Source of the DNA: Demequina sediminicola
Lineage (GTDB): Bacteria; Actinomycetota; Actinomycetes; Actinomycetales; Demequinaceae
Assembly: GCF_000975055.1 (NCBI RefSeq)
Contig: NZ_BBRB01000001.1
Location: 1 to 64,000, forward strand
DNA length: 64,000 nt
Direction of reading: 5' to 3'
The notes under the pieces are model-generated. The model made no database searches, was not told the origin of the DNA, and saw only the letters and a list, made by a program, of their open reading frames with translations. A program made the position numbers and the translations under genes. Of this stretch, positions 42,748 through 45,257 are shown in pieces; the first letter of the stretch is position 1, and every line of letters starts with the position of its first letter.

Positions 42748-43278
42748 TCAGGCGCTCGTGGGGTCAGTTACCTCGGGCTCGTCGGCGTCAAAGTGCCCGT
42801 ATCCGCACTCCTCAATGAGGTATCGCTGAAGCACGGAATACGCCACCAAGAAGTCGTCGCCTGCGTCGCTCTTGAGCGACCTCGATTTCAGTTTGACCGC
42901 TGCATATTCGCCAAGGGAAAGGTTGCGCGTACGGAGCACGATCCGTTGACGAAGTTCTTGCGCCCGTCCGTTGCTGACACCAAAGGACATGGTCGAGGTG
43001 GTGGTGACATCCGGCGCACGGAGCTCCGTGACATAGGACTCGGGACGCTTCACCTCGACAAGACGCTGCTGCACCATGAAGTCGGAGCCGTCCTTCGCGT
43101 GGCCTGTTGTCACAAACTCTGAGTTGACTTGACCCCATGCACCTTCGACGACGTCGATGCGTTCGATCTGGGGATGGAGCCGCACTTGCGCCTCACGATC
43201 GTCGATGAACGCCCAAATGTCCTCGATGGCGGCATCAAGTGGCAAAGTGAACTCGCTCGTCAGCGTCAGGTGGGGCAT
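42748..43278 (-). CDS. SRPBCC-like protein (DUF2505-type)
   Basis: This 176-residue protein probably shares the helix-grip fold: LTSEFTLPLDAAIEDIWAFI, a beta-rich middle (VQQRLVEVKRPESYVTELRA) and a long C-terminal helix region. The start at 43278 has AAGGAGA six bases upstream; the longer open frame to 43404 would cover the promoter of the leader peptide gene. Function unknown. It is divergent from the cysteine leader. Confidence 0.6.
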   Translation of the reverse strand: MPHLTLTSEFTLPLDAAIEDIWAFIDDREAQVRLHPQIERIDVVEGAWGQVNSEFVTTGHAKDGSDFMVQQRLVEVKRPESYVTELRAPDVTTTSTMSFGVSNGRAQELRQRIVLRTRNLSLGEYAAVKLKSRSLKSDAGDDFLVAYSVLQRYLIEECGYGHFDADEPEVTDPTSA

Positions 43279-43336
43279 GGCTTCTCCTTTTCCAGGGACG
43301 ATGCTAGCGGCAGGGACGTTGTCACGTCCCCTGATC

Positions 43337-43365
43337 TTGCTCCCCTGGGGCATCGGCGCTAGCCT
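43337..43365 (+). promoter_or_regulatory. promoter candidate for the cysteine leader and cysK-cysE
   Basis: TTGCTC (43337-43342) and TAGCCT (43360-43365) are 17 bases apart. Transcription would begin near 43372, 24 bases before the leader peptide ATG. A palindrome GGGACGT-tgtc-ACGTCCC (43313-43330) lies just upstream and could bind a regulator. Confidence 0.4.
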
Positions 43366-43395
43366 GGCCATAACCGCACTCGGAAGGACGGCCCC

Positions 43396-43503
43396 ATGAG
43401 CCACGCAACGCGCTTTGACGCGGCGTTCGCTCCTGCCTCCTCGATGTGTATGACCTCCGCTTGCATGTGCTGTGCCATGTGCGACGCGGACTGCTGTCTG
43501 TAG
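43396..43503 (+). CDS. cysteine-rich leader peptide upstream of cysK
   Basis: The 35-residue product ends SMCMTSACMCCAMCDADCCL: seven of its last 18 residues are cysteine. GGAAGGA stands seven bases before ATG 43396. It lies 148 bases ahead of cysK on the same strand. Such short Cys-rich frames are known in mycobacteria as cysteine-responsive attenuators, where ribosome stalling at Cys codons lets downstream cysteine genes be expressed. The stop codon TAG is the first base of a 10-bp hairpin. No family similarity is needed for this role; the composition and position are the evidence. Confidence 0.75.
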   Translation: MSHATRFDAAFAPASSMCMTSACMCCAMCDADCCL

Positions 43504-43587
43504 AGCGCTGGCACTGCCCCGCGGCCCCAGGCCACGGAGGTGACGCGCCGCCAGCGCTCGCCCCAGGAATCAAAGAGATTCCCCCTG
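43503..43587 (+). promoter_or_regulatory. attenuator-like hairpins between leader peptide and cysK
   Basis: GAGCGCTGGC (43503-43512) pairs perfectly with GCCAGCGCTC (43550-43559), starting at the leader stop codon. A smaller hairpin GGAATC/GATTCC (43566-43571, 43577-43582) follows. Neither has a U-tract, so control could be Rho-dependent or act on cysK translation. A ribosome on the Cys codons at 43492-43497 would cover the left arm. Confidence 0.5.
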
Positions 43588-43651
43588 CGTTACCCCCGCT
43601 AGCCGCGCTCGTGCACGGGCGCATTCATCGAATCACAAGGAAGAGAACCCC

Positions 43652-44587
43652 ATGGCAAAGATCTATGAGGACGCCACGGCCCTCATCGGCAACACTCCCC
43701 TGGTCAAGATCAACGCGCTCGCTGAAGGCGCCGGCGCCACGGTGCTGGGCAAGCTCGAGTTCTACAACCCCGCTAACTCTGTGAAGGACCGCCTCGGTGT
43801 CGCGATCGTCGACGCAGCAGAGAAGGACGGCGCCCTCAAGGCTGGCGGAACCATCGTCGAGGCAACGTCCGGCAACACCGGCATCGCCCTCGCCATGGTT
43901 GGTGCAGCACGTGGCTACAACGTCGTGCTCGCTATGCCGGAAACGATGTCGAAGGAGCGCCGCGCCCTGCTGCGCGCCTTCGGTGCCGAACTGGTGCTGA
44001 CCCCCGGACCAGAGGGCATGAAGGGCGCAGTCGAGGCTGCCAACAAGATTGCAGAAGAGCGTCCCGGATCGGTGCTGGCTCGCCAGTTCGCCAACGAAGC
44101 GAACCCCGAGATTCACCGCCGCACCACCGCGGAAGAGATCTGGAACGACACTGACGGCGAAGTTGACATCGTCGTGGCCGGCATCGGCACCGGTGGAACC
44201 ATCACCGGCGTGGGCGAAGTCCTCAAGGAAAAGAAGCCCGGCGTTCAGATCGTTGCGGTCGAGCCCAAGGAATCGGCGATCCTCAACGGCGGTGAGGCAG
44301 GCCCGCACAAGATCCAGGGAATCGGCGCCAACTTTGTGCCTGAGGTTCTCAACACTGAGATCTACGACGAGGTCTTCGACGTCGACTCCGAGACTGCAAT
44401 CGCCACGGCTCGCGCTGCTGCCCGCAAGGAAGGTCTGCTTGTCGGAATCTCCTCCGGTGCCGCCCTGCACGCTGCTATCGAGATTGCCAAGCGCCCTGAA
44501 AACGCTGGCAAGACCATCGTGACGATCATTCCGTCCTTCGGCGAGCGTTACCTGTCATCGGTGCTGTACGCCGACCTGATGGACTAA
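43652..44587 (+). CDS. cysK: cysteine synthase A (O-acetylserine sulfhydrylase)
   Basis: This 311-residue PLP enzyme makes cysteine from O-acetylserine and sulfide. The Schiff-base lysine is Lys45 in NSVKDR; TSGNTG (72-77) binds the substrate carboxylate; GIGTGGT (about 174-180) binds PLP phosphate; ISSGAAL holds the Ser facing the pyridine nitrogen. AAGGAAGAG precedes the ATG. cysE starts 16 bases downstream, giving the two-step serine-to-cysteine operon, under apparent control of the cysteine-rich leader. Confidence 0.96.
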
Positions 44588-44603: not shown

Positions 44604-45257
44604 ATGACTGACCGCATCGGATTCTGGGGCTTGGTCCTGGAGGACATTCGCACAGCGCACCGCCGCGACCCCGCAGCGCGTTCCACGCTGGTCATTGCGT
44701 TGTCCTACCAAGGCGTCCATGCCGTGTGGCATCACCGTGTCGCACACTGGCTGTGGAACCACGGGCTCAAGACCTATGGCCGATTGTGGTCGCAATATGC
44801 ACGCCGTCGCACCGGGATTGAGATTCATCCCGGTGCGACGCTTGGGCGTCGGGTCTTCATTGATCACGGAATGGGCGTCGTGATCGGCGAGACTGCCGTG
44901 GTCGGCAACGACGTCCTCTTGTTCCACGGAGTCACCCTCGGTGGAACCACGATGAGCCCTGGCAAGCGCCACCCCAGCATCGGCGATCGCGTTGTTGTGG
45001 GCGCCGGCGCCAAAGTCTTGGGACCCGTGCACATCGGTTGCGATGCCCGCATCGGCTCTAATGCGGTAGTCGTCAAGGACGTTCCCGATGGAGCTACGGC
45101 AGTGGGGATTCCTGCCAAGATCCGCAACCACCCCTCGGACCGCGAGGCCAGTACCGCTGCGTCCGCTGTCGACTCGGGCGACTCGCATCGGCACCCAGAT
45201 CCCGATGCGCCGCCGCAGAGTTTCGAGCAGCGCGAACCGGCGATGTACTACATCTAG
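44604..45257 (+). CDS. cysE: serine O-acetyltransferase
   Basis: The enzyme makes O-acetylserine from serine and acetyl-CoA for CysK. The 217-residue protein is the short type (EpsC-like). An N-terminal helical region includes [20 protein letters not shown], then comes a left-handed beta-helix of hexapeptides ([20 protein letters not shown] onward) with catalytic DHG and HPSIGD. The tail beyond the beta-helix is 30-40 residues, rich in Ser/Asp/Pro, and ends MYYI, comparable to the CysE C-terminal Ile that docks into CysK. AAGGAG lies 12 bases upstream. Confidence 0.93.

Follow-up and report, generated by a model that had tools for sequence, protein, structure and literature searches.

In Mycobacterium smegmatis, leaderless short open reading frames (ORFs) encoding polycysteine are reportedly cysteine-responsive, and a structure is said to sequester the ribosome site downstream of them. 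In tnaC, a ribosome held at the end of the leader frame covers the RNA just after the stop codon; the signal in that system is nascent-chain arrest by tryptophan and not a shortage of charged tRNA. A Cys-cluster ORF before cysA2 was presented by Shell et al. in 2015 (PMC4633059). A prediction published in 2005 placed Cys leader peptides on cys operons of Mycobacterium and P. acnes and on cbs of B. longum. In the accessible parts of that paper, these leaders have runs of Cys codons near the stop and no terminator, and Rho was proposed to act on them, with Rho control of the E. coli tnaC type being invoked (PMC1262725). In Rhodobacterales, the uORFC-8-2 motif before cysS combines an upstream ORF (uORF) containing tandem conserved Cys codons with stems and is a proposed attenuator (PMC8632094). 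The accessible part of PMC6429828 names no cysteine uORF, and for actinobacteria other than mycobacteria the literature searched had little on how leaders exert cysteine control.

The window analyzed here is the whole 64,000-nucleotide stretch of DNA (contig C11, positions 1 to 64000) from a Demequina genome of 2.46 Mb. Its assignment to Demequina agrees with the nearest named cysK loci, which belong to that genus at 97% identity, and with several loci of the genus set that are identical to named Demequina loci. A Cys-rich frame in this window precedes cysK and cysE, and the features of the region are as follows.

43337 to 43342, plus strand: predicted -35-like TTGCTC, part of the pattern TTGNNN-N16-18-TANNNT
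43360 to 43365, plus strand: predicted -10-like TAGCCT, 30 bases 5' of the uORF ATG
43382 to 43388, plus strand: Shine-Dalgarno (SD)-like GGAAGGA of the uORF, 7 nt 5' of the ATG; SD-like sequence at 42 of 43 genus loci
43396 to 43503, plus strand: Cys-rich leader peptide frame of 35 codons, ATG start and TAG stop; kept in 43 of 43 genus cysK leaders
43494 to 43507, plus strand: CTGTC-NN-TAG-AGCG block (TGT as the final Cys codon, then a C-first codon of any kind, the TAG stop, and the start of the stem), conserved in the genus
43503 to 43512, plus strand: 5' arm of hairpin 1, GAGCGCTGGC, beginning in the stop codon
43550 to 43559, plus strand: 3' arm of hairpin 1, GCCAGCGCTC, with GCCCC directly after it
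43566 to 43582, plus strand: possible hairpin 2 (GGAATC / GATTCC), a weak candidate; GGNATCG..CGATNC in many Demequina
43587 to 43591, plus strand: GCGTT block, mostly kept across Demequina
43637 to 43643, plus strand: SD-like AAGGAAG of cysK, by sequence
43652 to 44587, plus strand: cysK, cysteine synthase A (TIGR01139, 1.1e-134)
44604 to 45257, plus strand: cysE, serine O-acetyltransferase (TIGR01172, 1.5e-70)

The product of the leader frame, MSHATRFDAAFAPASSMCMTSACMCCAMCDADCCL, is 35 amino acids long and contains 7 Cys, all among the final 18 residues. Among the 2833 stop codons in the six frames of the window, only that of the leader frame is preceded by 7 Cys within 18 codons; 5 Cys were counted ahead of three others. 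An earlier note on this DNA had claimed a 35-codon frame with a good ribosome site, seven Cys within 18 residues, a position 148 bases before cysK on the synthase operon, and a perfect 10-bp hairpin starting at the stop codon. All of this agrees with the translation and coordinates, since 148 bases separate the stop codon from the cysK ATG at 43652 and the hairpin has 10 pairs, of which the first base is the third base of TAG. The same note had placed a Cys pair adjacent to the stop, which is slightly off, as one Leu codon lies between the pair and TAG.

Like the mycobacterial polycysteine ORFs, as far as the accessible accounts describe them, the Demequina leader is a short frame with a C-terminal Cys cluster, stands first in a cysteine-metabolism operon, and would use ribosome speed as its sensor. 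Unlike them, it appears by sequence to be leadered with an SD, and it stands on cysK-cysE. With the leaders predicted in 2005 it shares the Cys run near the stop, the lack of a terminator, and the suggestion of Rho; a difference is that the accessible part of the 2005 paper describes no conserved hairpin able to serve as a terminator (PMC1262725). The name cysK has 0 occurrences in the main text of that paper. A uORF with tandem Cys codons together with stems is common to the Demequina leader and uORFC-8-2, which differs, in the accessible text, in having a U-run that fits an intrinsic terminator and in belonging to another gene in another phylum (PMC8632094). The kind of switch is therefore already known, from the mycobacterial polycysteine attenuators, and the stop-anchored build on cysK-cysE may be new: no published cysK leader of this build was among the matches listed, which is weak evidence of novelty given that the subscription literature was mostly out of reach.

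Conservation of the leader frame and its Cys codons

A genus-wide search found a close cysK in 43 of 44 Demequina genomes. The 44th genome (G039) had only a distant cysK match and is outside the 43, and in one genome (G011) cysK is split over two frames. All 43 cysK leaders contain both the uORF and the CTGTC-NN-TAG-AGCG block, with leader peptides of 25 to 36 residues and a distance from stop codon to cysK of 111 to 206 bases. Whichever in-frame ATGAG or ATGTC came last was used as the uORF start, a choice that favours the resulting count of 42 of 43 leaders beginning with ATGAG. The promoter-like pattern TTGNNN-N16-18-TANNNT was present no more than 110 bases upstream of the uORF at 43 of 43 loci, compared with 0.2% of shuffles. 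Since the -10-like sequence of the window lies so close to the uORF ATG, a short 5' leader is expected. The description of the frame as leadered fits this pattern and the SD-like sequences; a stricter consensus scan of 43250 to 43700 found no sigma-70 promoter. The presence of the frame, the promoter-like sequence, and the block at every genus locus with a close cysK argues that the leader frame is not a chance occurrence. Conservation of the frame in relatives had been set beforehand as a test of the idea, and no genus locus with a close cysK lacks it.

Over the last 18 codons of the 43 genus leaders, 271 Cys codons were counted in frame versus 101 and 21 in the other frames. Counting back from the stop codon, Cys is found at position -2 in 43 leaders, at -3 in 37, at -4 in 34, at -7 in 24, and at -6 in 22. 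All 43 leaders use TGT for the last Cys codon; the remaining Cys codons comprise 207 TGC and 25 TGT. The codon preceding the stop always begins with C, encoding Leu in 39 leaders, Arg in 2, and Gln in 2. The fixed TGT and the C-first final codon point to two layers of constraint, one on the Cys codons and one on the bases across the end of the frame. The first 15 codons, with 390 nonsynonymous versus 89 synonymous codon differences (91 pairs), are without amino-acid constraint. Across relatives, Cys codons and the stop-stem are kept, and the N-terminal half is free to change.

Could the frame instead encode a small Cys-rich metal- or redox-binding protein? The way the Cys residues are spaced in the window peptide would allow metal binding. 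Across the genus, however, the number of Cys in the last 18 codons ranges from 3 to 9 and their spacing drifts, the first 15 codons are unconstrained, and the frame is linked to cysK with conservation at the level of bases across its stop codon. Leader peptides also gave no Pfam or NCBIfam match (seven peptides were compared with NCBIfam and three with Pfam). A protein of this type is therefore very improbable. The unconstrained N-terminal half argues that the leader works in cis, and from its sequence a cysteine response in cis appears highly likely. The leader is real and conserved, and it very probably senses cysteine.

The stop-anchored stem and its distribution

When the stem formed by 43503 to 43512 and 43550 to 43559 was folded alone, it had a predicted energy of -36.6 kcal/mol (z, -2.82), and 3 of 200 shuffles were as good; the whole leader of the window was not unusually stable (z, -0.96). 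Covariation was scored over all 85 distinct leaders, from inside and outside the genus. Paired cells made up 88.6% versus 85.5% in shuffled alignments, a measure that is inflated because the 3' arm was located by its own complementarity. Double-changed cells numbered 24 versus 7.8 in shuffles, and the covariation score was 0.124 versus 0.089 shuffled and at most 0.071 when the arms were slid. The number of pairs with a double change (5) and the number of further pair types (11 versus 11.7) were not clearly above shuffles, of which 85 and 420 of 500, respectively, were as high. In some families the aligner splits the 3' arm in this alignment.

A second, better aligned set (A2) contained 52 of the 85 leaders; omitted were near-duplicates, leaders removed as thinning choices, and those with a weak or misplaced 3' arm (L012, L026, L032, L055, L098, and L136), an omission by which the A2 covariation figures are flattered. 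With that selection, 91.0% of cells were paired versus 84.0% shuffled, 6 of 10 pairs had double changes, 39 cells were double changed versus 12.1 shuffled, and the score was 0.233, compared with 0.127 for shuffles and no more than 0.101 after sliding. The count of further pair types in A2 (12 versus 11.4) was not above shuffles. One stem pair is U-A in 35 of these leaders and C-G in 17, and three pairs are invariant and hence uninformative. When the downstream sequence was shuffled as a control, no more than 5 of 100 shuffles were as good in 72 of 85 leaders, with more in 13, and 83 of 85 leaders beat their own upstream region. In an alignment of Demequina alone (A1), the 3' arm is conserved without having been selected by complementarity. 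By sequence comparison, hairpin 1 is a covarying, conserved RNA stem across the leaders.

A second small stem, read from A1, is weakly indicated in many Demequina. In possible hairpin 2, 69.6% of cells are paired (shuffled, 63.4%), with a score of 0.178 versus 0.109 shuffled, but a shift of +2 still gave 0.166, and RNAalifold predicted no such stem.

Outside the genus, the best 80 of 572 relatives yielded 70 non-Demequina loci with a usable start (L075 and L084, without one, were left out), and the motif was found upstream of cysK at 21 of the 70. Carriers include Cellulomonas, Actinotalea, Isoptericola, Xylanimonas, Promicromonospora, Georgenia, and Gordonia zhenghanii. Variants among the 21 are GTGTC at L016, TAGGGCG at L037, L040, and L055, and a locus without a good stem, L032. 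Five of the 49 loci without the motif (Cellulosimicrobium and Oerskovia) keep a Cys-rich frame. The other 44 have none within 450 bases upstream of cysK, which indicates that the element marks some actinobacterial families and not all.

In an order-wide search, the exact pattern was found in 84 of 396 genomes: 34 of 34 in the genus, one other in its own family, 28 of 34 in family f9, eight in family f3, and 13 scattered. A control pattern read backward matches about 62 of 396 genomes, so single matches scattered beyond the carrier families are no more than chance would give. Among 30 order-wide loci that were fetched, 26 precede cysK and cysE (17 from f9, eight from f3, and one from f13), and cysK is absent at the remaining four (L137 to L140). 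A class-wide covariance search gave matches in 2 of 345 genomes, including that of the window, a result that bounds little because its filters were stricter and few carrier families were in the draw. The phylum-wide pattern search gave 0 of 396 with a pattern made for the Gordonia form and unable to match the form in the window. Within the family of the Gordonia record, a pattern search of 201 genomes gave four matches, three before cysK and one not. What gives the leader its interest is that a covarying, stop-anchored element lies on the cysteine synthase operon itself and is spread over several families.

Some leaders of Gordonia's family have a form of their own. In L200, L201, and L202 (~1500; L202 and L046 come from one genome), the leader ahead of cysK starts with GTG and contains the same stop-stem element. 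Their near-identical peptides end in LSLALFAHTVHLLTDHCR and have a single Cys, one codon before the stop, and the peptide itself looks conserved.

The bases before the stop codon also drew attention in their own right. CTGTC before the stop, with its TGT codon and the C-first final codon (43494 to 43503 in the window, and in the other carriers), is the most constant stretch of the leader, and neither pairing nor coding accounts for it; local pairing of at least 3 of its bases was predicted in 25 of 87 leaders. Three leaders from family f3, L128 to L130, have a 3' arm that copies the bases ahead of the stop, CTGTCGCT. By eye, an alternative stem that encloses the stop codon in its loop might compete there; the local fold prefers another hairpin.

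A ligand- or protein-binding RNA element of the riboswitch type, in which the uORF is secondary, would explain why the CTGTC-NN-TAG-AGCG block is more constant than the Cys run and why the last 12 codons contain just one Cys in 3 of 44 non-Demequina carriers. Apart from the stem, the loop of hairpin 1 is, however, variable across leaders, and Cys is enriched in frame in most carriers. A search of 43000 to 44000 of the window also found no Rfam family above its gathering score (best match, E 3). We consider such an element improbable.

Ribosome position and the probable read-out of the stem

The effect of a ribosome on the stem was modelled in the 43 genus leaders. The predicted probability of the stem, P(stem), was 0.82 with no ribosome, rose to 0.90 when the first Cys codon occupied the A-site, and was 0.83 for a middle one. 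With the ribosome on the last Cys codon or the stop it was 0, the zeros arising by construction from an assumed 15-base footprint. The claim that ribosome position decides whether the hairpin forms is thus geometrically sound in the model. The window's own leader is an outlier, with P(stem) of 0.06 without a ribosome, 0.03 at the first Cys, and 0.84 at the middle Cys; its 5' arm instead pairs with the uORF in the predicted fold. A trp-type attenuator shares the frame rich in regulatory codons, but its mutually exclusive stem may have a counterpart only in this competing fold of the window: for neither stem arm was a competing partner conserved across genomes found in the uORF, the downstream RNA, or the last Cys codon, where scores were near those of shuffles. 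The intrinsic terminator with U-tract of the trp type is absent from the Demequina leader. No U-tract follows the 3' arm, as had been stated earlier; 68 of 85 leaders have no T in the six bases after it, and none of the 85 has more than 3. A scan found no intrinsic terminator in the leader, its sole terminator-like site being at 43272 to 43284, before the leader.

The ribosome site of cysK was examined in predicted folds of 42 leaders. Mean openness of the SD was 0.57 with no ribosome, 0.58 with one at the first Cys, and 0.59 with one at the stop. An SD that is equally open at every ribosome position makes hiding of the ribosome site unlikely, and sequestration of this site by the stem was rejected on these values. 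In this the Demequina leader again departs from the mycobacterial polycysteine ORFs: its stem covaries and is anchored in the stop codon, and its downstream SD is not predicted to be hidden. Translational attenuation as in M. smegmatis, in which a structure would hide the cysK ribosome site unless a ribosome stalls in the Cys run, has the closest experimental precedent, as far as the accessible account goes. It also agrees with a rise in the predicted openness of the cysK AUG from 0.45 with no ribosome to 0.52 at the first Cys and 0.53 at the stop. Given the constant SD and, in the window, a gap of about 80 bases between the end of the stem and the cysK SD, we regard it as quite unlikely. Of the two modes of control named in the earlier note, Rho-dependent or translational, the second is therefore unsupported by the predicted folds, and the first remains plausible. 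The stretch from stop codon to cysK SD is 43% C and 26% G, versus 36% and 32% in cysK coding sequence, the only sequence used for comparison, and C exceeds G there in 42 of 43 genus leaders. A gene with the Rho RNA-binding domain was found in the genome of the window. On these sequence features, Rho is a likely candidate for the read-out.

The position of the Cys codons bears on the sign of the switch. Among 45 distinct carriers outside the genus, 21 have no Cys at -6 to -18 and have Cys in the final five codons only. For this reason we regard the stem, or else the bare RNA that follows it, as the repressive state and the stalled ribosome as the mask. The same 21 carriers, together with a cysK SD that is not hidden and the missing U-tract, indicate that the 5' arm is probably masked when a ribosome stalls at the frame's end. 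Transcription would start about 25 bases before the uORF, and the speed of the ribosome over the Cys codons would report charged tRNA-Cys. With ample cysteine, the ribosome would finish at UAG and leave, and the stem beginning in the stop codon would form; transcription of the C-rich untranslated stretch would then be cut short, most likely by Rho, which is the weakest step. When cysteine is scarce, the ribosome would wait on the Cys codons just before the stop and cover the 5' arm as well as the first part of the untranslated stretch, so that no stem would form and cysK-cysE would be transcribed. Masking of RNA after the stop by a ribosome would be shared with tnaC, and the signal would differ, being arrest by tryptophan in tnaC. 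This sign and the Rho read-out, taken jointly, are proposed tentatively, at a little under an even chance.

In Demequina, a mean of 3.4 of the 6.3 Cys in the last 18 codons are too far upstream to mask the stem, and these distal codons are why the opposite sign is kept as a rival. The stem would then be the "on" state: a ribosome stalled early would free it, and it would shield the RNA from Rho or aid RNA polymerase, whereas a ribosome at the stop would block it and transcription would end. The modelled stem is indeed most probable with the A-site on the first Cys, and the geometry resembles that of strand 2 of the trp leader. Carriers lacking distal Cys would, however, be shut off on starvation under this scheme, and no competing partner was found for the freed 3' arm. 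We judge the opposite sign unlikely, though worth keeping in view.

With the stalled ribosome as mask, CUGUC-NN-UAG-AGCG could be a nucleotide-level switch made by fusing the final Cys codon and the stop codon to the 5' arm. A ribosome on the last one to three Cys codons would occlude the stem, as few as one Cys codon would suffice (the Gordonia type), the switch would do without a terminator and without hiding a ribosome site, and Rho would read the outcome; as a whole, this is possible but doubtful. The broader proposal, that the region is a cis-acting, ribosome-mediated cysteine attenuator of cysK-cysE, is likely. It builds on sequence features for the frame, the Cys codons, the covarying stem, and the missing U-tract. 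The geometry and the open cysK site come from models. We infer the response to Cys, the sign of the hairpin, and the use of Rho. The locus would offer a chance to see attenuation without a terminator or a hidden ribosome site, a question raised, in its accessible part, by the 2005 prediction (PMC1262725).

A second Cys-run frame in the same genome

The genome of the window contains another frame with a Cys run.

L167:3782 to 3853 (contig C11, ~496281 to 496352, outside the window), plus strand: frame with the second Cys run, MSQHFAMRAFMMCRCCCAMCLQA, ahead of a sulfite reductase-like gene

In the 8 kb read, this frame is followed by a sulfite/nitrite reductase-like gene, cysH, and cysD; the best NCBIfam matches of the reductase-like gene were below their cut-offs. 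The reductase-like gene is present in 43 genus genomes, and a Cys-rich frame of the same kind, ending in MC(L/P)xA, was found at 26 of the 30 loci examined. The cysK leader and a leader on sulfate reduction in one genome would form a cysteine regulon, based on translation and open to testing, in which a leadered and a leaderless member occur side by side. A -10-like CACAAT ends 7 bases 5' of the ATG of the second frame; this spacing suggests that the frame is leaderless, as in mycobacteria.
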